Source: Serinicoccus sediminis (lineage in GTDB: Bacteria; Actinomycetota; Actinomycetes; Actinomycetales; Dermatophilaceae). Taken from it: a DNA stretch of 64,000 nucleotides. Under the pieces are notes generated by a model. It did not search any database and had not been told where the DNA came from. It worked only from the letters and a program-made list of their open reading frames with translations. A program made the position numbers and the translations under genes. Location of the stretch: assembly GCF_004153545.1 (NCBI RefSeq), contig NZ_SDVA01000005.1, positions 1 through 64,000 of the forward strand. The letters run 5' to 3'. Below are positions 854 to 15,761 of the stretch, one piece after another (the stretch's first letter is position 1; the number at the start of each line of letters is the position of its first letter).

Positions 854-1465
854 ATGGCGGATCCACCCACAGCCCTGGCCCTCAGCTGCTCCCTCAAGCC
901 CACCCCGGCGAGCTCCAGCACCGACCTGCTCGCCCAGCAGGTGCTCGACGCACTGTCCGGGCACGGTGTCGCGGGCCGCCTCGTCCGGGTCGTCGACCAC
1001 GACGTCCACCCGGGTGTGGAGGCCGACATGGGGGAGGGGGACGAGTGGCCCGCGCTGCGCCAGCAGATCGTCGACGCCGACATCCTGGTCTTCGCGACCC
1101 CCACCTGGGTCGGCAACATGTCGAGTGTGGCGCAGCGCGTCCTGGAGCGCCTCGACGCCGAGCTGTCGTTCACCAACGACCGCGGGCAGCCGCTGATGTT
1201 CGGCAAGGTCGCGGTCGTCGCCGTCGTCGGCAACGAGGACGGTGCGCACTCCATCACGGCAGCGCTGTTCCAGGGCCTGAACGACATCGGCTTCACCATC
1301 CCGGCCCAGGGCGGGACCTACTGGAACGGCGAGGCAATGCACGGCGTCGACTACCAGGACCTCGACGAGACTCCGGAGGCGGTCGCCTCGACCACCAGCA
1401 CGGTCGCGGCCAACGCGGCCCACCTGGCACGGACGCTGAGCACCGCGCCCTACCCCCAGGCCTGA
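854..1465 (+). CDS. NAD(P)H-dependent FMN reductase / flavodoxin-like protein
   Basis: 203 residues with the flavodoxin-like fold of NADPH-dependent FMN reductases. There is an early Ser-rich phosphate-binding loop (KPTPASSST, about residues 13-21). A middle strand DILVFATPTWVGNMSS (about residues 75-90) has the T-P-x-W motif that binds FMN, and a later strand reads VAVVAVVGNEDGAH. Such proteins transfer hydride to FMN or quinones in the cytoplasm. The ATG at 854 follows a purine-rich SD (GGAAGAGG). The gene stands alone, convergent with the minus-strand gene at 1507. The substrate is unknown. Confidence 0.8.
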   Translation: MADPPTALALSCSLKPTPASSSTDLLAQQVLDALSGHGVAGRLVRVVDHDVHPGVEADMGEGDEWPALRQQIVDADILVFATPTWVGNMSSVAQRVLERLDAELSFTNDRGQPLMFGKVAVVAVVGNEDGAHSITAALFQGLNDIGFTIPAQGGTYWNGEAMHGVDYQDLDETPEAVASTTSTVAANAAHLARTLSTAPYPQA

Positions 1466-2342: not shown

Positions 2343-3284
2343 CTACGGCGTAAGCCTCGCGTGTTGACGGCGACGTCGAGCCCGTCCCGCCTCGCGCGCC
2401 CGCGGGGCGGCGCGCAGCGCCAGGATGACGGCACCGGGGACCGTGGAGAGCAGCGCGAGGATGCCGTAGCCGATGGACACGGTGACCCCGGTGCCCATGT
2501 CGAGCCCACGCACCATGAAGATCCACCCGGCGGCAGCCTCACGGGTGCCCCACCCGCCCACGGTGGCCGGCACCGACATCGCCGCCACGGCGACCGCCCC
2601 CAGGCTGGGACCGAGCGACACCTCGACCTGCGGGGCCACGACCGCCACGGCCAGGACGAACATCGCCACGAAGGCGGCCCACCCCGCGACCGACAGCAGG
2701 ACCACCGCGAGGAGGTCGACGACCGACAGCCTCCGCAACCAGCGCCAGGCCACGGCGCCGGTGACCAGTGCGCCCGCGAGGCACGCGACCGCGACGAGCG
2801 GGAGGAACGGCAGCAGCGCCGTCGCCGCCGCGACGAGCACCACCGTCGTGCCGGAGAGCCGCTCCGCAGCCACCGCGGCGAAACCGCTGGCGAGGGCGCG
2901 GCGGCCGTCCTCGACCTGCGCGTCGCTGCTGTCGTCGGCGGCGCGCAGCGCGTCGCCCGCGAGCCCGCCGGGCAGCACGCCGTTGAGGAAGGCCGCCTGC
3001 CAGCACCGGGCGAGCGCCGGACCCACCGGCACGTGGATCTGCTGGTGCCGGGCGATGAGCCGCCACCGCAACGCCTGGGCGAGCACCCCGAACCCGCCCA
3101 GGGCGACCCCGCCGACGACCGCCCACCACGGCAGTGACCGGGCCGCCGTGGTGAAGGGGCTGAGTCCCCACTGCGCGACGACGAGACCGAGCAGGAGCAG
3201 GGTCAGCGCCACCTGCAGCGTGCCCACCATGGCCAGGCGCAGGCTGCGCGCATCCAGCCCGGCGGCGGCCCGTCGGCCGGTCAC
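2343..3284 (-). CDS. lysylphosphatidylglycerol synthase-type transmembrane protein (UPF0104)
   Basis: 313 residues, mostly membrane, with about seven to eight predicted hydrophobic segments. It carries family landmarks: RWRLIARHQ after the second segment, then the conserved loop WQAAFLNGVLPGGLAGDALR (N-x-hydrophobic-PGG-GGD-type signature), and a late VPATVGGWGTREAAAG motif. Proteins with this domain alone lack the aminoacyltransferase part of MprF and are thought to act as flippases or lipid/glycolipid handlers. The start is the GTG at 3284, which overlaps the TGA of the methyltransferase gene as GTGA, so translation is coupled. It is the last gene of the tightly packed operon. Confidence 0.82.
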   Translation of the reverse strand: MTGRRAAAGLDARSLRLAMVGTLQVALTLLLLGLVVAQWGLSPFTTAARSLPWWAVVGGVALGGFGVLAQALRWRLIARHQQIHVPVGPALARCWQAAFLNGVLPGGLAGDALRAADDSSDAQVEDGRRALASGFAAVAAERLSGTTVVLVAAATALLPFLPLVAVACLAGALVTGAVAWRWLRRLSVVDLLAVVLLSVAGWAAFVAMFVLAVAVVAPQVEVSLGPSLGAVAVAAMSVPATVGGWGTREAAAGWIFMVRGLDMGTGVTVSIGYGILALLSTVPGAVILALRAAPRAREAGRARRRRQHARLTP

Positions 3285-4159
3285 GGCCCCGTCTGCGCGG
3301 GCTCGGCAGCGGCCGTCGCGGTCGCCGTCGCCGTCGTCGTCGTCGTCGTCGGCAGGCTGAGCAGGTCCAGGTGCCCCACCCGCACGGTGAGCACGCCTGC
3401 CGTCAGCTGCCGCTCGCGCTCGGCACGCCACTCGTGGGCCAGCGGCTCCAGGTCCGGGTCGTGCTCGACCGCGACCGCCGCCCGGTCGTCGAGGTAGCGG
3501 CGCAGCAGCTCCCCGTCCTCGGCACCCAGCACCCAGTCGGTGGCCCTGACCTCGACCTGGGCACCGCGCCGCCGCAGCGCGTCGGCCATCACCGTGGCCG
3601 CGTCCGGACCAGGCCGGTCCTCGCGCCGCTGGTGCGCGTCGAACGCGTCCGCGAGCGGGGCGTCGGAGGGGTGGGCGGGGTAGAGGTCGACCTCCCCGGT
3701 GACGGTGAGGCTCAGCAGGGCGGTCACACCCTCGGCGTCGGCCGGCGCGACGACGTCGGCCAGGGCCTCCAGCTCGCCCGTCGACAGCAGGTCGAGGAGG
3801 GCCGCGCAGGCCACCAGGACGTGCCGACCACGGGGCACCAGGGTGTGCAGGTCGTCGACGGTCGCGACGGCGCGCTCGGTCGTGACGTCGGCGGTCGCCT
3901 CCACCGTGCTGTCGACGGCCAGAAGCTCCTCGTCGTGGTCGACGAGGAGCCACCGCTGCCGCCCTGGCAGCCGCGGGGCGAGCCACTCCTGGTTGGAGCC
4001 GGTTCCCGCCCCCACGTCGACCACCACCAGCTCGTCCGCGTCCCCCGGCTGCAGGCGGTGGGTGAGCAGGTCGAGCAGCTCGACGGCGCTCTCACGGGCG
4101 CGGTGGTCGGCCTGTCGGCGCAGGGCCAGCCAGTCGGCCGGGACGGGACGGGCTACCAC
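3281..4159 (-). CDS. SAM-dependent methyltransferase (class I)
   Basis: About 292 residues with a Rossmann methyltransferase core. Motif I reads VVVDVGAGTGSNQEWLAPRL (about residues 45-65), followed by the acidic LLVDHDEELL that binds the SAM ribose, and a later CAALLDLLS segment. The C-terminus ends in a low-complexity Thr/Ala run. I prefer the GTG at 4159, whose codon pair GTGGTA contains the stop of the upstream glycosyltransferase, over the ATG-type start at 4198, which would overlap that gene by 46 bp. Position in the operon suggests it methylates the product assembled by its neighbours; the acceptor is not known. Confidence 0.78.
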   Translation of the reverse strand: MVARPVPADWLALRRQADHRARESAVELLDLLTHRLQPGDADELVVVDVGAGTGSNQEWLAPRLPGRQRWLLVDHDEELLAVDSTVEATADVTTERAVATVDDLHTLVPRGRHVLVACAALLDLLSTGELEALADVVAPADAEGVTALLSLTVTGEVDLYPAHPSDAPLADAFDAHQRREDRPGPDAATVMADALRRRGAQVEVRATDWVLGAEDGELLRRYLDDRAAVAVEHDPDLEPLAHEWRAERERQLTAGVLTVRVGHLDLLSLPTTTTTTATATATAAAEPAQTGP

Positions 4160-5223
4160 CCCACGGCCTGCCGGAAGTCCGTCGCCGTCGTCGCCCACCC
4201 ACGGAGTCTATCCCGGTGCTCCGCCGCCGCCGCCCGCCAGCCGGACCGCAGGCCCCCGTCGTCGAGCCACCGCGCGAGGGCAGCGGCCCAGGCCGTCGGC
4301 GACCCGGCCTCCACGACGTCTCCCGGAGGCGGCACGCCGTCCCGCTCCCCGGACCCGCGCAACGCCTCGACGGCACCTGTCCCGGCGGGCACGAGCGCGG
4401 GTATGCCGTGCGCCAGCGCCTCGGTCACGACCATGCCGTAGGTCTCGGCGGTGGAGGGGAGCACGAGGAGGTCGGTCGCGCGCCATACCGGGGCGAGCTC
4501 GTCGTCGGAGCGCGGACCGAGCAGGCTGGCCCGACCGTCGAGGCCCTCGGCCCGGGCGCGAACCGCGTCGACGTACTCCTGGTCCGGCCCCGCCGGACCG
4601 ACCAGGGACGCGGTCCAGCTGCGGTCGCGCACGGAGGTCAGCGCCTCCACCAGGGCCAGCGGACCCTTGCGCGGCGTGATGGCGCCCAGGAAGAGCAGGT
4701 GCGGAGGGGTGCTGCCGGTCGCGGGTGGTGCGGGGTCGGTCCCCGGCGGGACGGGGCGCACCTCGCCGAGGCCGTACCGCCGAGCCAGGTCGTCCCGCGC
4801 CCACCGGCTCGTCGCGACCACCGTGTCGGCCTCCTGCAGGGCCTCCTGCTCGGCCGCGGCCAGCAGGTCCCGCTCGGGTGCGTCCAGCCCACCCTCGGCC
4901 GGCAGCGGCAGGTGGACGAGCACGCCGACCCTCGTGCCGCGGTGGCGGGCCCGGGCGAGCTCGGCGGGTGCGGCCGACCCGATGATCCCGTCGACCACGA
5001 CGTCGGTATGCCGTGCGAGCACCTGCTCCAGCGCGCGCCGGTCGTCGTCGGTCGGCCGCGGCCAGGAGCCGGGAACCTGCTCGACCGTGAGGGCCACCCC
5101 GCCTGCGGTGAGCTCCTCCGCGAGGCGCGCGTTGTAGCGGTTGCCACCACTGGGTCCGGTGAGGTCACCAGGCAGGAGGAGGGCCCGCGAGGAGCGGCCC
5201 TCAGCCCCGGAGGTCGAGGTCAT
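4153..5223 (-). CDS. GT4-family glycosyltransferase
   Basis: 356 residues with two Rossmann-like halves (GT-B). The N-terminal half has the GGNRYNARLAEEL acceptor-side loop (about residues 26-38). The C-terminal half has LFLGAITPRKGPLALVEAL (donor domain entry), then LLVLPSTAETYGMVVTEALAHGIPALV, the E-x7-E-type motif of retaining GT4 enzymes that bind the nucleotide-sugar. It likely transfers a sugar to a lipid or small-molecule acceptor. The ATG at 5223 overlaps the end of the PTPS-like gene by 23 bp. It is the fifth gene of the operon. Confidence 0.85.
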   Translation of the reverse strand: MTSTSGAEGRSSRALLLPGDLTGPSGGNRYNARLAEELTAGGVALTVEQVPGSWPRPTDDDRRALEQVLARHTDVVVDGIIGSAAPAELARARHRGTRVGVLVHLPLPAEGGLDAPERDLLAAAEQEALQEADTVVATSRWARDDLARRYGLGEVRPVPPGTDPAPPATGSTPPHLLFLGAITPRKGPLALVEALTSVRDRSWTASLVGPAGPDQEYVDAVRARAEGLDGRASLLGPRSDDELAPVWRATDLLVLPSTAETYGMVVTEALAHGIPALVPAGTGAVEALRGSGERDGVPPPGDVVEAGSPTAWAAALARWLDDGGLRSGWRAAAAEHRDRLRGWATTATDFRQAVGW

Positions 5224-5581
5224 ACGTCACCCAGGCCTGCGGGTGCTCGCGCACCACGATGCCGATGCCCTCGATGGCGGGGTCGGCCCGGTCGGCGAGG
5301 GCGTGGGCGACGTGCGCGGCGACCGCCTCGGTGGTGCTCAGCCTCCCGGCGAAGTCCGGGTGCTCGTCGAGGTTGGCGTAGCGCAACGGGTCGAGCACCT
5401 CGGAGAGGTGGCGCCCCGCCTCGCCGATGTCGACCACGACGCCGTGGGCGTCGAGGTCGCGACGGCGCCACGTGGCCTCCACCACCAGGGTGGCGCCGTG
5501 CAGGCCTTGGGCCGGCCCGAAGAAGGGGTCCGGCAGGCTGTGGGCCACCATGACGTGGTCGGTGACGGTGAGTCCGAACAT
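5201..5581 (-). CDS. 6-pyruvoyl-tetrahydropterin synthase / QueD-like protein, divergent active site
   Basis: 126 residues, the normal length of the PTPS/QueD (T-fold) family. The first zinc-ligand region reads VMVAHSLPD, and the second region, normally C-x3-HGH, here reads GPAQGLHGATL. One histidine is kept, the second is Ala, and the catalytic Cys position is not Cys. The later TTEAVAAHVAHAL and VVREHPQAWVTYD segments match the family C-terminus, including the Glu that binds the pterin. In the canonical family the protein acts on 7,8-dihydroneopterin triphosphate. The altered residues make a standard QueD or PTPS reaction doubtful, so this looks like a subfamily with a different reaction. 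It lies 15 bp after the dehydrogenase gene. Confidence 0.8.
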   Translation of the reverse strand: MFGLTVTDHVMVAHSLPDPFFGPAQGLHGATLVVEATWRRRDLDAHGVVVDIGEAGRHLSEVLDPLRYANLDEHPDFAGRLSTTEAVAAHVAHALADRADPAIEGIGIVVREHPQAWVTYDLDLRG

Positions 5582-5596
5582 CGTGCTCCTCGCTGG

Positions 5597-6631
5597 TCAG
5601 GGATGGTCGGGTCGACACGCACCTGCGCCGGTGTCGTCGACCTGGGTGTCGGCATAGGTCAGGACGAGGCACCCGCCCTGGGGGGCGGGGGAGTCCAGCT
5701 CCTCCAGGGCCGCCGCGATGTCCTGGAACGGCCGTTCGCCGGCGACGAGGACGTCGAAGGCGGGGTCGGACAGCAGGTCGAGCGCGGTACGCAGCCGGTC
5801 GGCCGGGTCGCGCCGGTGCCGACGGGCCGCGCCGACCCGGGACACCTGGCTGGCGACCAGCCGCAGCCGCCGGGAGTGGAAGTCCTCACCGAGCGGGACC
5901 TGGGGCGCAGGGTCGCCGTACCACGACAGCTCGACCACCTCGGCGTCGTCCCCGGCGAGCGTGAGCGCCAGGGCGAGGCCCGGCTCGCTCGCCGACGCGT
6001 GGTAGACGAGGTCGCAGTCGGGGGCGGCCTCGGTGGGCGACACCGCGTCGAGGCCGGCGTCGGCGAGCTGGGCCCGGCGCGCGGGGTCGGTCTCGACGAC
6101 CTGCAGACGTCCCAGCGGGAAGCGGCGGAGCAGCAGGGCGAGCGCCCCGCCGATGAGCCCCGCGCCCACCGCAGCCACGCGGTCCCCGGCGCACGGCGGC
6201 GCGTCCCACAACGCGTTCAGCGCCGTCTCGGTGGGGCCGGCCAGGACCGCCCGTCGCGACGGCACGCCGTCGGGCACCCGGGTGAGGGCGTCCACGGGCA
6301 CGACATACCGGTCCTGGTGCGGGTGCAGGCAGAAGACCCGCGCACCGAGCCAGTCCTGCGGGCCCTGCTCGACCACCCCGACGGAGAGGTAGCCGTACTT
6401 GACCGGGAAGGGGAAGCTGCCGTCCTGGAAGGGTGCGCGCATCCGGTCGACCTGCGAGTCCGGCACCCCGCCGCGGCGCACCAGCAGCTCGGTGCCCCGG
6501 CTGACGCCGCTGGTCGCCGTGCGCACCAGCGCCTCGCCCGGCCCCGGCTCCGGCAGGGTCTCCTCGCGCAGCTCGCCCTCCCCGGGCGCGGTCGCCCAGT
6601 AGGCGAGCGCGGTCTCCGAGCGGGGGCTCAC
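5597..6631 (-). CDS. medium-chain (zinc-type) alcohol dehydrogenase-like oxidoreductase
   Basis: 344 residues of MDR type. The N-terminal GroES-like domain contains TSGVSRGTELLV and KYGYLSVGVVE. The Rossmann domain has VAAVGAGLIGGALALLL (GxGxxGG, about residues 150-166) followed by VVETDPARR, where the acidic residue suggests NAD rather than NADP. The usual catalytic and structural zinc cysteines are not obvious, so the enzyme may be zinc-free, like some bacteriochlorophyllide- or threonine-dehydrogenase-like members. The start is the GTG at 6631, overlapping the phosphatidyltransferase stop as GTGA. The substrate is presumably an operon intermediate. Confidence 0.78.
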   Translation of the reverse strand: MSPRSETALAYWATAPGEGELREETLPEPGPGEALVRTATSGVSRGTELLVRRGGVPDSQVDRMRAPFQDGSFPFPVKYGYLSVGVVEQGPQDWLGARVFCLHPHQDRYVVPVDALTRVPDGVPSRRAVLAGPTETALNALWDAPPCAGDRVAAVGAGLIGGALALLLRRFPLGRLQVVETDPARRAQLADAGLDAVSPTEAAPDCDLVYHASASEPGLALALTLAGDDAEVVELSWYGDPAPQVPLGEDFHSRRLRLVASQVSRVGAARRHRRDPADRLRTALDLLSDPAFDVLVAGERPFQDIAAALEELDSPAPQGGCLVLTYADTQVDDTGAGACRPDHP

Positions 6632-7347
6632 GGCCGGCTCTCCAGGTCGACGACGTCGCGGGCGAAGGAGGCGACCAGGGCCGCGAGCGCCAGCGCGGCG
6701 GCGGCACCGGCCAGCGGCAGCGGCACCAGCGGCACCACCACGAGCAGCAGGGCGACACCCTGGAGGGCGGCCACCACCCGACGCGGCTGGCTGAAGGTCA
6801 GCTCCGCACGCAGGGCCGGGCGCACCCAGGAGGCCGCCACGAAGAGGTAGCGCAGCGCGCCGATCGCCACCACCCACCACCCGACCTGGGTGGCCGCCAG
6901 GACGGACAGCACGAGGAGCAGGGCGGCGTCGGACTCCATGTCCAGACGGGCCCCCGCCGCGCTCGCCGTCCCCGTCGACCGGGCGACCCAGCCGTCCACC
7001 GCGTCCAGCAGCAGCGCGGCGCCGACGACGAGCGCCAGGGGCCAGGTGCGGCCGGGGAGCTCGCCGGCGAGGACGAGCACGGTCGCGGTCGTGATGAGGC
7101 CGGTCAGGACCACCCTGCCCAGGGTGACGACGTCGGGCGGGGTCACGGCGACGGGCCGTCGCCGGGCCAGCGTGGCCCCGGCCACGACCGGCACCGCCAG
7201 GCCGGCGCCCAGCGCCACGGCGCCGAGCCACGGCGGGGGAGCGACGCGGCCGAGCAGGCCCAGGCACAGCGCGAGGGGGAGGAGGACCACGGCGGACTCC
7301 ACCACCGCCCCCGCCCGGGGTCGACCCGCGCGCATCTGGGTCGCCAT
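6628..7347 (-). CDS. CDP-alcohol phosphatidyltransferase family membrane protein
   Basis: 239 residues with about six membrane segments and the complete family signature. DAVDGWVARSTG followed by GARLDMESD fits D-x2-D-G-x2-A-R-x8-9-G-x3-D-x3-D (about residues 115-140). The aspartates bind two metals and the CDP group. The family joins a CDP-activated lipid or head group to an alcohol at the membrane. The ATG at 7347 overlaps the cyclohydrolase stop (TGATG). Its presence among heterocycle enzymes suggests that a GTP-derived alcohol or a sugar alcohol is attached to a lipid, but that is inference. Confidence 0.85.
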   Translation of the reverse strand: MATQMRAGRPRAGAVVESAVVLLPLALCLGLLGRVAPPPWLGAVALGAGLAVPVVAGATLARRRPVAVTPPDVVTLGRVVLTGLITTATVLVLAGELPGRTWPLALVVGAALLLDAVDGWVARSTGTASAAGARLDMESDAALLLVLSVLAATQVGWWVVAIGALRYLFVAASWVRPALRAELTFSQPRRVVAALQGVALLLVVVPLVPLPLAGAAAALALAALVASFARDVVDLESRP

Positions 7348-8738
7348 CAGCTGGCGTCGGGGACGTCGGCCGCCAGGGCGGCCGGAGCCGCGCCCCGGAC
7401 CCGCAGGTCGAGCTCGGTGACGACGTCGTCCCCCAGCTGGTAGCGGCGGGCGGGCGGCCGGAGGGCGTCGGTGAGCAGGTCCTGGCCGTCGACCCGCAGT
7501 CCGGGCACCCCGTCGCCGATGAGCACCGGGGCGGTGGTGAGGTAGAGGCGGTCGACGGCTCCGGCCCGGACGAAGGCCGACACCAGCCGCCCTCCGCCCT
7601 CGACGAGGACCCGGTGCAGCCCGCGGGAGGCGAGCAGGTCGAGGACGGCGCGGGGCTCCATCGGTCCCGCGTCCGGCCACCGGACGACCTCCACGTGCTC
7701 GCCGACCGGACCGGGGCGGACGTCGGCGCCGACGACCCACAGGGTGGGTGAGGCGGCGTCGGCGAGCACGACGGAGTCCGCCGGGGTGACGCCGCGCGGG
7801 TCGAGGACGACCCGCGTGGGGTGCGGGCCGTCCACCGCGCGGACGGTCAGCTGCGGGTCGTCGCAGGCCACCGTCGCGGCGCCCACGACCACGGCGTCCA
7901 CCAGCGCCCGCAGGCGGTGCAGGTGCTCACGGTCCAGCTCACCGGTGACGAAGGCCGCGTCACCGGTCCGGCTCGCGATGAAGCCGTCCAGGCTCTGCCC
8001 GAGCTGGGCCAGCACGCGCGGCCCGTCCGCCCGGTTCAGGTCGCCGTAGCGCTGAGCCAGCTCGCCGGCCGCCGGGATGCGCCCGGCCAGCAGCTGGTCC
8101 CACTCGTCCTGGTCGGCCTCGTCGTGGCCCATGCGGGCGCGCTTGGTGGCGAGGTAGAAGGCGTTCTCCTCACGGTCCGGGACGACCAGCGGCACGCGTT
8201 CGACGACCTCGATGCCGAGCGCGCTGAGCGCCAGCTCCTTGGCCGGGTTGGAGGACAGCAGCCGGACGCGGCGCATCCCCAGGTCGAGCAGCATCGCGGC
8301 GCAGTGGTCGTAGGTGCGGGCGTCGGCGGGGTGGCCCAGGGCCAGGTTGGCGTCCACGGTGTCGACGCCGCGGTCCTGCAGGGCGTAGGCGCGCAGCTTC
8401 TCCGCCAGGCCGATCGCCCGGCCCTCGTGACCGCGGGCGTAGACCACGGCCCCGCGACCGGTCCGCGCGAGCAGCTGCAGCGCGTACTGCAGCTGCTCCC
8501 CGCAGTCGCAGCGTCGCGACCCCAGCGCGTCGCCGGTGAGGCACTCGGAGTGCACGCGCACGAGGGGCGGCGGGAGGTCCGGGCCGTCGTCGTCGGTGAC
8601 CCCGAGGCTGAGGACGACGTGGTCCATCCCCGTGTCGTCGCGGTATGCCGTCATCCGGAAGGTCGCGTGGTCGGTCGGGAGCCGGGTGTCGGCCACCCGT
8701 TCGACCCGCCGCGGTGCGGTTCTCGCCTGCTCACCCAT
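7347..8738 (-). CDS. GTP cyclohydrolase II fused to a RibD-type reductase domain
   Basis: 463 residues in two parts. Residues 1-215 are GTP cyclohydrolase II: VHSECLTGDAL then RRCDCGEQLQYAL supply the three zinc cysteines, and GHEGRAIGLAEKLRAYALQD and LLSSNPAKELAL match the GTP-binding and catalytic regions of RibA. Residues 250-450 are the NADPH-dependent RibD C-terminal reductase: LAQLGQSLDGFIAS at its start, then VGAATVACDDPQLTVR and HRVLVEGGGRLVSAF. Together they would open the imidazole ring of GTP and reduce or process the pyrimidine. No other riboflavin gene is adjacent. I chose the ATG at 8738 because a CATAAT box ends 7 nt upstream, so the mRNA may be leaderless; an in-frame ATG at 8747 is the alternative. 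It heads the operon. Confidence 0.85.
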   Translation of the reverse strand: MGEQARTAPRRVERVADTRLPTDHATFRMTAYRDDTGMDHVVLSLGVTDDDGPDLPPPLVRVHSECLTGDALGSRRCDCGEQLQYALQLLARTGRGAVVYARGHEGRAIGLAEKLRAYALQDRGVDTVDANLALGHPADARTYDHCAAMLLDLGMRRVRLLSSNPAKELALSALGIEVVERVPLVVPDREENAFYLATKRARMGHDEADQDEWDQLLAGRIPAAGELAQRYGDLNRADGPRVLAQLGQSLDGFIASRTGDAAFVTGELDREHLHRLRALVDAVVVGAATVACDDPQLTVRAVDGPHPTRVVLDPRGVTPADSVVLADAASPTLWVVGADVRPGPVGEHVEVVRWPDAGPMEPRAVLDLLASRGLHRVLVEGGGRLVSAFVRAGAVDRLYLTTAPVLIGDGVPGLRVDGQDLLTDALRPPARRYQLGDDVVTELDLRVRGAAPAALAADVPDAS

Positions 8739-8822
8739 CCTCCACATTATGGTCGTGACCGGCGATCTTCTCCTGCGGAGAGGCGATCAGCGTGTCGACG
8801 ACGAGTGCTGGAGGTGAGACAG

Positions 8823-9407
8823 GTGACAGGCTGGGTCCGTCGGACCTCCGAGGGTCGGAGCCACCGGGAACATGCGCCGGTGGCGGTCACCGACGAGGTC
8901 GAGTCGCTCGCGGGCAGGGCCGTGGGTGGGGTGTCCGACGCCTGGGCGGTGCTCGGCGTGCGCGCCGTCCGGCGGCTGTGGGTCCCCTGTCTCGTCCTCG
9001 GGGTGGCGTGGGTGGTGTGGACCGGGACCACGCAGGACGTGAGCGAGCTGCGCCTCGCCACGGTGCAGGAGATCGTGGGGGCGCTGCTGAGCCCGTTCGT
9101 GGGGGTGGTCCTGGCCCTGGGCCTGCGGGTGGCCTCGACGGTGCTGGGGGTGGTCGCGGCCCTGCCCGTCGCCCGCACGGACCTGCGGCGCGCGCGTCGC
9201 CGGATGGCCACGGGGGTGGTGCACGTCGTCTCGGTGGCCATCGGGCTGCGCTGGCTCCGGACGACGACCGCCGCGCGGGACGTGGCGCTGTCGCGACTGC
9301 GTCCCCCGGTCGCCCGCACGATGCTCCTCCTCGACCGGGTCGAGACCGCCCTGATCCCGGTCGCGGTGCTGGTCCTGCTGGTGGTCGTCGCGGTGGCGTC
9401 CGGCTGA
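8823..9407 (+). CDS. membrane protein of unknown function
   Basis: 194 residues. A charged N-terminal third is followed by at least three hydrophobic segments: LWVPCLVLGVAWVVW; then EIVGALLSPFVGVVLALGL running into STVLGVVAAL; and a C-terminal ALIPVAVLVLLVVVAVA that ends the protein. Basic loops (RTDLRRARRRM) sit between them. I do not recognise a family. The GTG at 8823 follows GGAGG at 8 nt. The gene is divergent from the GTP cyclohydrolase operon and shares its 75-bp upstream region, but no functional link is shown. Confidence 0.6.
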   Translation: MTGWVRRTSEGRSHREHAPVAVTDEVESLAGRAVGGVSDAWAVLGVRAVRRLWVPCLVLGVAWVVWTGTTQDVSELRLATVQEIVGALLSPFVGVVLALGLRVASTVLGVVAALPVARTDLRRARRRMATGVVHVVSVAIGLRWLRTTTAARDVALSRLRPPVARTMLLLDRVETALIPVAVLVLLVVVAVASG

Positions 9408-9416
9408 GCGCCCTCC

Positions 9417-10094
9417 CTACCGCGGGGGCACGAGGGCGTCGACCCCGTCCACCGCACCCACCGCTCCGGCGGCGAGCAGCTCGTGGCGTCGGCCCTCCTC
9501 CTCGGCCACCGCGACCACGGCCACGCCCGCCGCGCGGCCCGCCTGCACGTCGGTCACCGAGTCGCCGAGGAAGACCGACTCCTCGGGGCGTGATCCGGTC
9601 AGCCCCAGGGCCCGCACCAGGAGGTCGGGCCGCGGCTTGAGGTCGGCCACCTTCCCCGCCGACCGGCCGACGACGTGGAGGCGCGCGGTGACGCCGTGGC
9701 AGGCGCGGTCCAGCACGCCCGCCACGACGCCCGGGGTGTTGTTGGTGACCACGGCGACGGAGGCACCTCGACCGAGGGTGTGCTCGACGAGAGCCACCGC
9801 CCCGGTCCGGGGGGACACCCGGGCGGCGGCCTCCAGCTCGAGCTCGGTGACGAGAGCCTCGAGGGGCTCCAGCAGCCGGGGCGAGTGGTCACCCACCAGC
9901 CTCAGGCACTGCACGTGGTCCGCCTCGCCCTCGAGCCGCTGCGCCAGCTCGGACCCGCCGAGCCTGCGCGCCTCCGCCCGCAGCCGGTCGCCCAGCTCGG
10001 CCCACCGGGCCCCGGGGAAGAGCCGGGCGAGGGGCCCGTCGAAGTCGACGAGCAGGGTCCGGGCGTCCTCGACGAGGCGGCGGGCGTTCTCCAC
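9417..10094 (-). CDS. HAD-superfamily hydrolase
   Basis: 225 residues with the four HAD motifs. Motif I is LLVDFDGPLARLF (DxD nucleophile with Gly/Pro, near residue 17), motif II VAVVTNNTP (T), motif III the Lys in VADLKPRPD, and motif IV VFLGDSVTDVQAG (GDSxxD). The helical cap between motifs I and II is that of the phosphoglycolate phosphatase-like subclass. It probably removes phosphate from a small metabolite; the substrate cannot be read. The GTG start at 10094 lies 6 nt after a TAGGCT box (10106-10101) with no SD, so the mRNA is probably leaderless. Confidence 0.8.
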   Translation of the reverse strand: MENARRLVEDARTLLVDFDGPLARLFPGARWAELGDRLRAEARRLGGSELAQRLEGEADHVQCLRLVGDHSPRLLEPLEALVTELELEAAARVSPRTGAVALVEHTLGRGASVAVVTNNTPGVVAGVLDRACHGVTARLHVVGRSAGKVADLKPRPDLLVRALGLTGSRPEESVFLGDSVTDVQAGRAAGVAVVAVAEEEGRRHELLAAGAVGAVDGVDALVPPR

Positions 10095-10100
10095 CCACCG

Positions 10101-10192
10101 AGCCTACCCAGGGCCGGGTGCCCGACCGGCCCGGGCGGGGTCGCCCGCACACCGGTCGACACCGCCCCGGGCGGTGACCCCGCTGCTACCGT
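10101..10192. promoter_or_regulatory. divergent pair of -10 boxes for leaderless transcripts
   Basis: TAGGCT (10106-10101, minus) and TACCGT (10187-10192, plus) each end exactly 6 nt before a GTG start, of the HAD gene (10094) and the MFS gene (10199) respectively. Neither start has an SD. This is the geometry expected when transcription starts on the first base of the start codon. Confidence 0.55.
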
Positions 10193-11495: not shown

Positions 11496-14400
11496 ATGAC
11501 GTCACGGCTCCGACCACTCTCGTCCCGGAGGTGGACAGCGCTCGCGCTCGCGACGACGCTCGGCATCACCGGGCTCGCGCCCGCCGCGGTCGCGGCCCCG
11601 GCCGCCCCGGACGAGGGCGGTGACGACCTCGCCCAGGAGGCCGCCGCCGACTTCACCACCCTGCTCGACTTCGAGACCTACACCCCGGGGGGCCTGGACG
11701 GCCAGGACGGGTGGGTCGGCTCGGCCGCCGCGGCCGTCGTGCAGGACCCGCTCAACCAGAACAACTTCGTCGGCCAGCTCAACGGCCCGGGGGAGAAGGC
11801 ATACCGGGAGATCCCGGCGATCGAGGACGGGGACACGGGGACGCTGTTCTTCCGGTTCCTGCGCACCGAGACCGTCGACACCTCCTTCGGCATCACCGAC
11901 GTGGACGTCCCCGGCACCTACACGGACAGCCGGGCCTACGTGAACAACCAGAACGACGACATCCTGCGGGCCCGCGACGGTGGCGCGTTCGCGTCGGTCG
12001 GCACGTGGGGGAAGGACTCGTGGCAGTGCGTCTGGATCGTCGCGGACAACGCGAGCGACCAGGTCAGCGTCTACAGCCAGGGGGGACCCTACGAGGAGCA
12101 GACCCGGCTCCCGGACGGCGCCGAGGAGCAGTTCGACTTCCGTGTGCCGGTCTCCGGCGCGCTGGACCGCTTCTTCTGGATCAACGGCTCCCGCAGCCCC
12201 GGCGACCTCTACCTGGACGACGTGGGCATCGACACCGCGGGGGAGAACCTCGCCATCCCCAGCGGCAACCCCGCCGACTGCGAGGCCGGGGAGATCCCCG
12301 AGCAGCCGCTGCTCAACCCGCTGCCCGACCCGGAGCTCTCGACCCTCGGCATCGAGGTGGAGGAGCTCGTCCAGCTCCCGGAGTCCTCGACCACCCCGGC
12401 GGCGAGCGACCAGCGGCTCATCCGGCACAACCGCATCACCCACCTCGACGAGGTCCCGGACGGCTCCGGCCGCCTCGCGGTGCCGGACATGAACGCGATG
12501 CTCTACATGGTGGACAAGGAGACCGGGGACTACACCCCGTACCTCGACGTCCGTGAGCGCTTCGTCGACAACTTCCACAACCACGCGGGGCTCGGCACCG
12601 GGTTCGGCTTCGTCGAGTACCACCCGGAGTACGCCGAGAACGGGATCTTCTACACGGTCCACACCGAGGCCGGCAGCGCGCTCACCGAGGACGAGCCGGA
12701 CTTCCCCGCCTACGGCGGCGTGAACTACCACAGCGTCGTCACCGAGTGGACCGCCGACGACCCCGCGGCGGAGGTGTTCTCCGGCACCAGCCGCGAGCTC
12801 ATGCGGGTGCCGTTCGCGGGTCGCGTGCACACCCTGCAGCAGATCGCCTTCAACCCGACCGTCAGCCCCGGCGACCCCGACTACGGGATGCTCTACATCC
12901 TGTCCGGCGACGGTGGCAACGGGGTCGGCAACGACAACCCGCAGGACCTCGCGACGCCGCACGGCAAGATCTTCCGGATCGACCCGATGGGCGACGACAG
13001 CGACAACGGCCAGTACGGCATCCCGGCCGACAACCCGTTCGTGGGCACCGAGGGCGCACTCGGCGAGATCTACGCCGTCGGTCTGCGTGACCCGCACCGC
13101 ATCAGCTGGGACCCCGAGGGCGACCACACGATGTACCTCGGCCACATCGGCGAGTGGCAGGTCGAGTCGGTGTATGCCGTCGAGCCGGGCGACAACTTCG
13201 GCTGGTCCGACCGCGAGGGACCGTTCGTGGCGCAGAACCGGCAGATCTTCCCGCTGCCCGAGGACGACGCCGAGCAGTTCGACTTCACCTACCCGGTGGC
13301 GGCCTACGACCACAACCGCGACCCCGGGCAGACCGGTGACGCGGGCGTGGCGCTGAACGGCGGCTTCGTCTACCGCGGCGAGATCGAGGAGCTGCAGGGC
13401 AAGTACCTCTTCACGGACCTGGTCCGGGGCTGGGTGCTGTCCACCGAGGAGGACGAGATGGTCCGGAACGACGGGGACCCCGAGGACCTCGCCGAGATCG
13501 AGCAGCTCAAGGTCTTCGCCGACGGCGAGGAGACCACCTTCGCCGAGCTCGTCGGTGACAGCCGGGTCGACCTCCGGTTCGGCTCGGACGCCGACGGCGA
13601 GCTCTACCTCGTCTCCAAGGCCGACGGCCGGGTCTGGGAGGTGACCGGCGCCCGTGAGGACGTCGTGTCCTCGCCCTACGTCCTGGAGGACCTCGCCGCG
13701 GACGTCGTGGCCCGCTACGACTTCGACCACCCGGTCGAGGGCGACGCCACGAAGGAGGCCGACCAGGGCCTGTCCGGCACCGACATCGACCTCGTCAACG
13801 GCGGCGTGGAGATGCGGGTCGCGGACGCGGCATACCCCGGTGCGGGTGAGGCGCTGCAGACGCAGCAGCTGAGCCCTGACCAGGCGTCCAACGACGACTG
13901 GAAGGCCGGCGTCTACGACGCCGACGGCGTCCGGAGCCTGTCCCGCTTCGCCGGGGCCGAGGAGACCACGGTCATGGGCTGGTTCAAGCCCACGGGTGAG
14001 CTGCCTGCACCGAACACCAACACCACCGACCCGGACGACCGTTACAACGCGATCGGCCTGGCGGGCGTGCTCTCGGGCGACTCCGACGGGCACGGCGTGC
14101 GCGCGCTGCTGGAGGTCATCGACGTGGGCGGCGAGCAGAAGCTCGTGGCCCTCGGCCGCCGGGTCGACGGGGCGAGCTCGTGGACCTACGCCGCCGACCT
14201 GCCCTGGGACGAGATCCTCGAGCAGGGCGAGTGGGTCCACCTCGCGGCGACCTTCGACTTCGTCGAGGGCGAGATGGCGCTCTACATGAACGGTGAGCCG
14301 CTCGAGGGCGACTACACCGCGGCCAACCGCTGGGGCTCGGGTGCCACGTCCGACACCGACCCCGCGGGCATCAAGATCGGTGGCAGCTTCCCCCAGGACA

Positions 14401-15761
14401 CGCAGGAGCGGAACCCCTGCGACTGCCGGATGGACGACCTGATGTTCCTCGACGCGGTGCCGACCGCGGAGCAGATGGCCGCGCAGTACGCGTTGTTCGA
14501 GGTCCCGGAGGAGCAGCCGGTGTTCGACCCGGGCTGCACCCCCGGCGACACGGTGGTCACCGATGTCATGGACGCCTCGAGCTGGGCGCCGCGGACCCCG
14601 GAGAAGTGGGAGTTCCCCGGTGACGCGGTGGTGCTGGCCGAGGCCGGTGACAACCCGAACGACGGCATCCGCCGGCCGTTCGAGTACGCCGTGCTCACCG
14701 AGGGCCCCGAGCTGGGCTCCCTGGTGATGGACGCGCAGGTGCGCCTGGACGAGCCGGTGTCGGTGAACAACCGCGACGTCATCCTCGTCTTCGGCTACCA
14801 GTCGGACACCGAGTACTACTACGCGCACCTGTCGCAGGACAACACCATCTACGCGCACAACGGCATCTTCAAGGTGGACGGCGCCGACCGGGAGCGGATC
14901 GACGACCAGTGGGACGGCACCATCGGTGCCCCGCCCGCGGTCACCGACGACGCCTGGCACGACGTGCGCCTGGTGCACTGCGCGGACACCGGTCGGATCG
15001 CGGTCTACCTCGACGGTCTGGGCACCCCCCTGCTGACCGCCACGGACGACACCTTCGGCTCCGGTCGGGTCGGCTTCGGCTCCTTCGACAACGTGGGCCG
15101 GATCCGCGGTGTCACCGTCACCGGTGACAGCGCCGAGGTCCCGGTGGTGCAGCCGAGCGTCACCATCACCGGTGGTGGCGGCGAGGTCGCGACCGATCAG
15201 CCCGTCGAGGTGACGGGCGAGGCGACCCCGGGCAGCACCGGGTGGCGCGAGGGCAAGGAGTCGGTGTACGCCGAGCTCCAGGACGCCGAGGGCCGCAAGG
15301 TCGTCGGCCGGGAGGTGCCGGTCACCGACGGCACCTTCGCCACCTCGTTCGACGTCTCCGGGTTCACCCCGGGCGACTACACGATCAAGGTGTCGGTCCG
15401 TTCCCAGGGTCACGGCAACGCCTCGGACACGGCGGCGCTGACCTTGGTGGCGCCCGCCACGCCCACCGACGAGGTGGACCTGCGGGTGTCCGTGCGGGCC
15501 CAGTGCTCCAACAAGACGGCCGTGGTGGCGGTGCACGTCGTCAACGAGGACGGTCACCGGGTGGACGTCCGGGCCACGACCGCCTTCGGCGACAAGAAGT
15601 GGACCAACGTCAAGGACGGCAAGGCCGTCTACCACGTGTTCCGCTCGGGCGAAGGCGCCATCGAGGCGGGCAGCGTCACCGTGGCGGGCTACGCCTGGTA
15701 CGACGGCGAGGGCCACTACGAGCGCTACGAGCTCGACCACGAGGCGGTGAGCTGCTCCTGA
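11496..15761 (+). CDS. secreted multidomain PQQ-type sugar dehydrogenase / LamG / 3-keto-disaccharide hydrolase-like protein
   Basis: 1421 residues. A signal peptide occupies about residues 1-35 (WTALALATTLGITGLAPAAVA). Residues 50-255 form a beta-rich region ending in DLYLDDVGIDTA. Residues 305-720 are a glucose/sorbosone dehydrogenase-like beta-propeller: NFHNHAGLGTGFGF, MLYILSGDGGNGVG, HGKIFRIDPMG, VGLRDPHRISWD, NFGWSDREG. Residues 738-998 are a LamG/concanavalin fold (GEWVHLAATFDFVEGEMALYMN in two parts). Residues 1018-1208 match the DUF1080/3-keto-disaccharide hydrolase fold (DDAWHDVRLVHC, YLDGLG, GSGRVGFGSFDNVGRIR). A beta tail with Ig-like strands ends the protein. No sortase or membrane anchor is seen. 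It probably oxidises and cleaves extracellular glycosides. The LacI-type operator upstream ties it to the transporter operon at 18118. A strong terminator follows. Confidence 0.8.
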   Translation: MTSRLRPLSSRRWTALALATTLGITGLAPAAVAAPAAPDEGGDDLAQEAAADFTTLLDFETYTPGGLDGQDGWVGSAAAAVVQDPLNQNNFVGQLNGPGEKAYREIPAIEDGDTGTLFFRFLRTETVDTSFGITDVDVPGTYTDSRAYVNNQNDDILRARDGGAFASVGTWGKDSWQCVWIVADNASDQVSVYSQGGPYEEQTRLPDGAEEQFDFRVPVSGALDRFFWINGSRSPGDLYLDDVGIDTAGENLAIPSGNPADCEAGEIPEQPLLNPLPDPELSTLGIEVEELVQLPESSTTPAASDQRLIRHNRITHLDEVPDGSGRLAVPDMNAMLYMVDKETGDYTPYLDVRERFVDNFHNHAGLGTGFGFVEYHPEYAENGIFYTVHTEAGSALTEDEPDFPAYGGVNYHSVVTEWTADDPAAEVFSGTSRELMRVPFAGRVHTLQQIAFNPTVSPGDPDYGMLYILSGDGGNGVGNDNPQDLATPHGKIFRIDPMGDDSDNGQYGIPADNPFVGTEGALGEIYAVGLRDPHRISWDPEGDHTMYLGHIGEWQVESVYAVEPGDNFGWSDREGPFVAQNRQIFPLPEDDAEQFDFTYPVAAYDHNRDPGQTGDAGVALNGGFVYRGEIEELQGKYLFTDLVRGWVLSTEEDEMVRNDGDPEDLAEIEQLKVFADGEETTFAELVGDSRVDLRFGSDADGELYLVSKADGRVWEVTGAREDVVSSPYVLEDLAADVVARYDFDHPVEGDATKEADQGLSGTDIDLVNGGVEMRVADAAYPGAGEALQTQQLSPDQASNDDWKAGVYDADGVRSLSRFAGAEETTVMGWFKPTGELPAPNTNTTDPDDRYNAIGLAGVLSGDSDGHGVRALLEVIDVGGEQKLVALGRRVDGASSWTYAADLPWDEILEQGEWVHLAATFDFVEGEMALYMNGEPLEGDYTAANRWGSGATSDTDPAGIKIGGSFPQDTQERNPCDCRMDDLMFLDAVPTAEQMAAQYALFEVPEEQPVFDPGCTPGDTVVTDVMDASSWAPRTPEKWEFPGDAVVLAEAGDNPNDGIRRPFEYAVLTEGPELGSLVMDAQVRLDEPVSVNNRDVILVFGYQSDTEYYYAHLSQDNTIYAHNGIFKVDGADRERIDDQWDGTIGAPPAVTDDAWHDVRLVHCADTGRIAVYLDGLGTPLLTATDDTFGSGRVGFGSFDNVGRIRGVTVTGDSAEVPVVQPSVTITGGGGEVATDQPVEVTGEATPGSTGWREGKESVYAELQDAEGRKVVGREVPVTDGTFATSFDVSGFTPGDYTIKVSVRSQGHGNASDTAALTLVAPATPTDEVDLRVSVRAQCSNKTAVVAVHVVNEDGHRVDVRATTAFGDKKWTNVKDGKAVYHVFRSGEGAIEAGSVTVAGYAWYDGEGHYERYELDHEAVSCS

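Follow-up and report, generated by a model that had tools for sequence, protein, structure and literature searches.

A 64,000-nucleotide stretch of DNA from Serinicoccus sediminis (contig NZ_SDVA01000005.1, positions 1 to 64,000; hereafter the window) carries a minus-strand operon of seven genes, A to G, which we propose, with moderate confidence, to encode one dedicated pathway from GTP to a glycosylated, methylated, pterin-like (2-amino-4-oxo) compound that is probably attached to the membrane or moved across it. The genes encode a fusion of GTP cyclohydrolase II (GCH II) with a RibD_C-type reductase (A), a CDP-alcohol phosphatidyltransferase (B), an MDR-family dehydrogenase (C), a PTPS/QueD-fold protein (D), a GT4 glycosyltransferase (E), a methyltransferase (F) and a flippase-like membrane protein of the LPG synthase type (G). 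These families and their mostly overlapping arrangement had been described in an earlier note on this DNA and are borne out by the reading frames and by Pfam, profile and fold results: positions 2343-8738 hold seven complete frames, all on the minus strand, and five of the six junctions are overlaps (1, 4, 23, 46 and 4 nt), the remaining one being a 15-nt gap. What follows is firm, at the level of sequence, as to which enzymes are present, how they are conserved and that GCH II occurs in two forms.

The set was sampled twice, both times through the PTPS gene, and all counts therefore describe this PTPS subfamily and not the other genes in general. For the first sample, a PTPS-alignment scan of genome contigs matched at least 595 stretches, of which the best 80 named loci were used; these were found with the motif FGPA[QTS][RG][LTV]HG[HA] and ranked by likeness to window D, so that the Ala and HG residues are partly selected in them. 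The named loci belong to Actinomycetota, to Alphaproteobacteria (10 loci, assigned by title, five of them in metagenome-assembled genomes, MAGs) and to one planctomycete MAG. No more than 10 kb separates the MDR, PTPS-like and GT4 genes from one another in 76 of the 80, and the order of the genes is variable. Among these best 80, homologues were found of MDR in 79, GT4 in 76, the methyltransferase F in 42, the CDP-alcohol transferase in 38, LPG in 34, GCH II in 31, the reductase in 30 and a creatininase-family protein in 14. The second sample drew on 394 genomes of the same class, 58 of which had a match at 1e-15; nine of these had been covered by the first sample, and 50 loci were fetched from the remaining genomes and 49 counted, with species overlap with the named loci being possible. 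Here GT4 is present in all 49, MDR in 48, LPG in 43, the CDP-alcohol transferase in 42, the methyltransferase in 41, GCH II in 38, the creatininase in 25 and the reductase in 20. The set is patchy in close relatives (present in two of eight same-family genomes listed), and its gene order differs between loci (for example L114, L119 and L135), which indicates that conservation exceeds shared synteny; its return in other genomes goes beyond chance. The earlier note had suggested looking for the families within 10 kb elsewhere and had allowed that they might not be conserved together; they recur with the PTPS gene across both samples, and their conservation is stronger than that note could show.

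All of the families, including reductase, creatininase and GCH II, occur together in Streptomyces samsunensis (L142: CDP-alcohol transferase, MDR, PTPS, GT4, methyltransferase, LPG, reductase, creatininase and GCH II). Three groups of loci are named below: 'Arthrobacter-type' (L080-L106, L108-L110 and L113, from Arthrobacter, its relatives and Sinomonas; L076 and L077 are Arthrobacter loci with a fuller set), 'Rubrobacteraceae', our inferred label for group f18, in which one genome has a plasmid identical to a Rubrobacter radiotolerans plasmid, and 'Streptomyces-type', likewise inferred, for group f5. The 12 Rubrobacteraceae loci (L041, L043, L044, L045, L047, L048, L049, L052, L053, L054, L058 and L063) all have reductase, MDR and FolB, with GT4 and methyltransferase in 11 each and GCH II in one. 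FolB acts on dihydroneopterin, a point in favour of a pterin product; its gene opens the cluster in divergent orientation in each of the 12 loci, adjoining the reductase in 11 and GCH II in L047. Clustering of predicted genes in search of a further conserved family brought up new families that mostly reflect synteny inside the Arthrobacter-type or inside the Rubrobacteraceae group. Three loci were dropped from the counts, L046 because its contig ends before MDR, and L071 and L202 because, with MDR, GT4, GCH II and reductase in place, no PTPS was found by tblastn. In L071, a PTPS-looking frame with the altered motif HHHD lies between MDR and GT4 (9760-10149, minus strand), and a divergent GCH II and a RibD_C match adjoin MDR. 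A MAG named Solirubrobacterales (L075) has a cluster PTPS 83% identical to window D and is probably mis-binned.

The protein at the centre of this sampling, D, belongs to a distinctive subfamily, and its best solved relative is SCO6650 of Streptomyces coelicolor (3d7j, E 3.6e-28), a protein reportedly without zinc and without a catalytic triad. Taking Cys and Asp-His to be the catalytic residues of the PTPS family, window D (AxxxHGA) has Ala for Cys, Tyr for His and HGA for HGH, and none of the PTPS-I, PTPS-II and PTPS-III signatures (CxxxHGH, CxxxxxHGH and ExxHGH) fits it. All 148 cluster rows have Ala at the catalytic-Cys site; 79 of them come from the scan pattern, which demands Ala and HG[HA], and 69 do not. 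The catalytic-His site, on which the pattern is silent, is Tyr in 143. In place of HGH, 135 rows read HGA and one HGV, and the 12 that keep HGH all come from Rubrobacteraceae; the pterin-anchor Glu is kept in 146 rows, and His14 and His28 are retained in the subfamily. As controls we used 18 of 40 fetched PTPS loci showing neither MDR nor GT4; their lack of partners is thus by choice and their residue type is not, and all 15 with a scorable PTPS have Cys, Asp-His, HGH and Glu. The census leaves out L115 and L201 (no MDR match, contig end), and the control residues leave out L062, L065 and L069 (no PTPS match). In a tree, 53 chosen cluster rows of the 148 split from 15 QueD-type rows with support of 100/98, SCO6650 lying outside the tree. 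A PTPS subfamily that has lost the catalytic Cys and Asp-His, retains the anchor Glu and is tied to an MDR partner is new here, and homology-based annotation would label its members as QueD or PTPS. The loss of catalytic residues would also suit a binding or scaffold protein in a pathway to a deazapurine- or folate-like product; however, the loss tracks fixed partners, with Ala in every row that has MDR against Cys in every scorable locus without it, and we regard a scaffold role as very improbable.

A second division runs through GCH II. The GCH II half of window A has the zinc motif C-x10-CDC and a Tyr (RAYALQ) at the position that we take to be Tyr105 in the numbering of E. coli RibA. In the first sample, all 20 creatininase clusters have CEC, with this Tyr replaced by Met, His or Leu, and all 20 without a creatininase have CDC and Tyr; in the second, CEC goes with Met, Leu, His or Gln in 25 of 25 creatininase clusters, while CDC and Tyr are found in 11 of 12 without one. 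The exception (L197, in genome G742) was traced to the edge of the fetched stretch: a cluster-type creatininase of 354.6 bits lies 3.5 kb past that edge, about 10 kb from the last cluster gene, whereas none above 125 bits was found genome-wide in the other 11 second-sample genomes. Pooled, CEC without Tyr105 is found in 46 of 46 clusters that carry a creatininase, and CDC with Tyr in 31 of 31 that lack one, a lack that is genome-wide for 14 and holds within the fetched stretch for the other 17. One of the creatininase clusters (L138) was scored as such on a 97-bit match, and clusters without a GCH II match stand outside these tables. In the GCH II tree the creatininase type forms one side of one branch (46 rows, support 98/84), which rules out many independent events as the source of the link; the trait's own columns were kept in this tree.

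The two in-cluster forms of GCH II and the association of one of them with a creatininase are new here. Judged by family, they fit two routes to one diaminopyrimidine, one of which would run through a BrbF-like deformylase; the window, with its CDC-Tyr enzyme, should need no deformylase. SCO6655, a Tyr-to-Met GCH II homologue of S. coelicolor, reportedly releases a formylated pyrimidine, and the creatininase standing alongside in 46 of 46 clusters offers a possible answer to why this homologue stops there. BrbF, a creatininase-family protein, is reported to deformylate the same GTP-ring-opened intermediate, and its GTP-opening partner in Sinorhizobium riboflavin synthesis is said to be still undiscovered (PMC9478397).

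The reductase half of A has its best profile match in a 2,5-diamino-6-ribosylamino-pyrimidinone phosphate reductase (6p8c), followed by 2azn; TIGR01508 stays under its cut-off, and the score for eubacterial RibD is similar, so that the type of reductase is not decided by these matches alone. GCH II and reductase form one reading frame in 10 of the 38 clusters that have both. A contains GCH II and RibD_C and no deaminase domain, nor was a deaminase domain found among the operon proteins scanned. GCH II and RibD_C are riboflavin-type enzymes, and the locus could in principle serve flavin or riboflavin supply with the remaining genes as passengers, but no RibB, RibH or RibE domain was found among the operon proteins scanned, and contig C18 of the source genome carries another GCH II, 1.3 kb from which a 422-aa open frame matches RibD_C. 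With this second GCH II and a single GCH I on contig C66, A is not the genome's only riboflavin-type enzyme, a possibility for which the earlier note had allowed, and a sole riboflavin function was rejected on the C18 genes. In a study of S. coelicolor, moreover, SCO6655 and SCO2687 are listed as anticorrelated in expression with modelled flux (PMC2853524), which agrees with a late-phase role without proving it. Overall, we consider a riboflavin-supply locus highly improbable. The in-cluster GCH II of the window is 98% identical to that of Serinicoccus chungangensis, and a genome-wide search of the source genome gave no match to a cluster-type creatininase.

As a single sequence C reached no Pfam model, but a profile of its relatives matches MDR dehydrogenases, and structure prediction (pLDDT 92) gives it an MDR fold. 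The ligands of zinc alcohol dehydrogenases in this family are Cys and His-Glu; the corresponding sites in the consensus of the C family read SRGTE and KYGY, and the ligands are missing. Matches to the model include, among many other MDR enzymes, sorbitol, xylitol, idonate and butanediol dehydrogenases, which act on polyols or secondary alcohols (TM 0.71-0.77).

Based on these families, we propose the following order of reactions. The GCH II half of A would open GTP to 2,5-diamino-6-ribosylamino-pyrimidinone 5'-phosphate (step 1); in creatininase-type clusters the altered GCH II would halt at the formylated intermediate and the creatininase would strip the formyl group. The RibD_C half would then turn the ribosyl into a ribityl chain (step 2), and as there is no deaminase the 2-amino group would be retained. 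GTP opening and ribosyl reduction are supported by the enzyme families; the details of chain oxidation, ring closure, glycosylation, methylation and lipid joining are our hypothesis. The zinc-less dehydrogenase C would oxidise a hydroxyl of the chain (step 3), and were this C2', the result would be identical to the Amadori intermediate formed by GCH I, with its 1-deoxy-2-keto chain. D would hold the heterocycle via its anchor Glu and either close the ring or reshape the side chain (step 4), E would add a sugar and F a methyl group, as in cyanopterin (step 5), and B would use a CDP-alcohol to couple the alcohol, or else its phosphate, to a lipid while G moves the product or keeps it at the membrane (step 6). 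Because C1' reduction followed by C2' oxidation gives the Amadori chain, closure by the 5-amino group would yield a dihydroneopterin-type pterin without GCH I. We speculate further that the operon is a GCH I-independent pterin route through C2' re-oxidation, its product a pterin glycolipid of a new class spread over several phyla, a proposal that we ourselves hold to be doubtful.

The heterocycle might also stay an open pyrimidine, namely a ribityl-aminopyrimidine tied to lipid via the chain phosphate, with C and D tailoring the chain and no pterin ring being formed. For such a product GCH II, reductase and CDP-alcohol transferase would be sufficient, and the closest match to the fold of B, a weak one (7drj, E 0.009), is phosphatidylglycerol phosphate synthase, an enzyme whose acceptor is a polyol phosphate. 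However, the MDR dehydrogenase and the anchor-Glu PTPS-fold protein are the members of the set most rarely missing, though in loci chosen by PTPS, and we consider an open pyrimidine unlikely.

Several of our results weigh against a single pterin-forming pathway. D itself is without catalytic residues and, outside Rubrobacteraceae, without one zinc ligand. GCH I is present in 26 of the 26 cluster genomes tested, so that a second pterin route is not forced, and the cluster as a substitute for a missing GCH I, in Rubrobacteraceae or elsewhere, was rejected on this count. The cluster FolB is the sole FolB in six of seven Rubrobacteraceae genomes tested and may therefore be a plain folate gene. Of the 31 Arthrobacter-type loci, 28 have only MDR, PTPS and GT4 and three only MDR and PTPS, some of these stretches ending early at contig ends, which limits the absence of other set genes. 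The creatininase/CEC rows, being a single clade, represent one evolutionary change kept without loss. A RibD_C gene is absent from the fetched stretch in 38 of 46 creatininase clusters compared with one of the 31 others, and the ribosyl-reduction step is thus not universal at the locus; a search for a cluster-type reductase elsewhere in six Streptomyces-type genomes gave only weak matches (85 bits or less). The best match of the C model is RspB, and threonine and alcohol dehydrogenases and quinone reductases score alike, so that the substrate of C is not fixed by its fold. Finally, a more distant BrbF homologue did not complement a BrbF mutant (PMC9478397), and membership of the creatininase family is accordingly no proof of deformylase activity.

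Five Streptomyces-type genomes (G128, G193, G023, G182 and G161) have a RibD_C match about 1 kb from their other GCH II copy, far from the cluster, and this gene could be the missing reductase. In each of three Arthrobacter-type genomes a single reductase match turned up, weak and partial, and GCH II was matched two or three times, in some cases by pieces of one gene.

The enzymes for lipid, sugar and methyl transfer bear on whether the operon is one unit. B has the full CDP-alcohol phosphatidyltransferase motif, DxxDGxxARx8GxxxDxxxD, invariant in 25 of 25 rows; E reaches the MshA model below cut-off (69.6 bits), and G matches TIGR00374 below cut-off. Within the fetched stretches, neither B nor G has a match in the 12 Rubrobacteraceae or the 31 Arthrobacter-type loci. 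This absence near the Rubrobacteraceae core, and MDR, PTPS and GT4 standing alone in Arthrobacter-type loci, would be expected if a heterocycle maker (A, C, D and E) and a separate lipid/glycan unit (B, F and G) were merely co-located. Against such a division, B is in 42 and G in 43 of the 49 second-sample loci, both accompany the set in a different order in Roseovarius confluentis (L119), and in L048 GT4 and methyltransferase share a single reading frame; we therefore think two independent modules quite unlikely. The earlier note had proposed a pterin- or pyrimidine-containing, glycosylated and methylated membrane lipid. A glycosylated, methylated pterin-like compound is our best reading as well, while linkage of the product to membrane or lipid is no more than plausible from the families present in the operon, as B and G have no match in two groups.

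Coordinates of the operon genes and of a possible accessory gene are listed below.

Table 1. Genes of the operon and a possible accessory gene in the window.
Gene	Product	Position	Strand	Evidence
A	GCH II + RibD_C-type reductase fusion, 463 aa	7347..8738	-	Pfam PF00925 201.6 bits, PF01872 123.6 bits
B	CDP-alcohol phosphatidyltransferase, 239 aa	6628..7347	-	PF01066 over cut-off, scanned in longer frame
C	MDR-family dehydrogenase without zinc ligands, 344 aa	5597..6631	-	Profile of relatives, predicted fold
D	PTPS/QueD-fold protein, SCO6650 subfamily, 126 aa	5201..5581	-	PF01242 2e-21; 3d7j relative; residue census; tree
E	GT4 glycosyltransferase, 356 aa	4153..5223	-	PF13692, PF00534, PF13439 over cut-off
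F	SAM-dependent methyltransferase, 305 aa, start uncertain	3281..4198	-	PF13649 E 2.5e-5, below cut-off
G	LPG_synthase_TM / flippase-like membrane protein, 313 aa	2343..3284	-	PF03706 72.9 bits in longer frame
	Possible accessory HAD-type phosphatase, upstream, outside the overlapping run	9417..10094	-	PF00702 over cut-off

An HAD-type phosphatase gene adjoins GCH II in Serinicoccus L074 and in L153, other loci giving only a weak match in L144; as the gene lies directly beside GCH II in these two, its product may be what takes the phosphate off the chain in this family. A frame without a Pfam match lies between the HAD gene and A in the window (8799-9404, plus strand); in L074 the HAD and GCH II matches are about 65 nt apart, leaving no room there for a counterpart. 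The region is flanked by an FMN reductase-like gene (854-1465, plus strand) and by a long frame that combines a glucose/sorbosone dehydrogenase domain with a laminin-G-like one (11496-15761, plus strand).

Taken together, our results point to a widespread, uncharacterised metabolite whose proposed reaction order can be tested enzyme by enzyme. The earlier note knew of no described pathway with this set, and we found no paper in the open-licence literature on SCO6650, on the gene set or on pterin glycosides in connection with such glycosyltransferases; the caveat is that the structure of SCO6650 (3d7j) has been solved. Papers of 2006-2008 reportedly dealt with SCO6655 and SCO6650. In the accessible text of one review (PMC13259868), the terms glycosyl, Streptomyces, actinobacteria and GTP cyclohydrolase II yield only a reference to BGluT.

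Among known systems, the closest is the SCO6650/SCO6655 region of S. coelicolor: D is homologous to SCO6650, and the likeness of the gene set rests on S. samsunensis L142. SCO6655 is of the Met type; in A, by contrast, GCH II is fused to the reductase and has Tyr and CDC, and no creatininase accompanies it. The archaeal route opens GTP with GCH III, a protein unrelated to GCH II, which is the opener in the operon; the reductase half of A is nearest to diamino-type reductases. The chemistry of that route (GCH III, ArfB and diaminopyrimidine reductase) runs in the same order (PMC9478397). BrbF of Sinorhizobium belongs, like the cluster protein, to the creatininase family and is reported to deformylate the GTP-ring-opened intermediate; BrbF serves riboflavin (PMC9478397), whereas the likely partner in creatininase clusters is the nearby altered GCH II. 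Within COG0720 (PTPS-I to PTPS-VI), D shares the family, the anchor Glu, His14 and His28, but has FGPAxxxHG[HA] and Tyr for His when compared with the PTPS-I, II and III signatures in the accessible text (PMC5041015). Finally, the cyanobacterial pteridine glycosides (BGluT, PgtA and cyanopterin, the last a pterin glycoside with a methylated sugar) have pterin and sugar transfer in common with the proposed pathway; their pterin is made via GCH I, and the available portion of that paper names no GCH II, MDR or CDP-alcohol transferase (PMC3546692).

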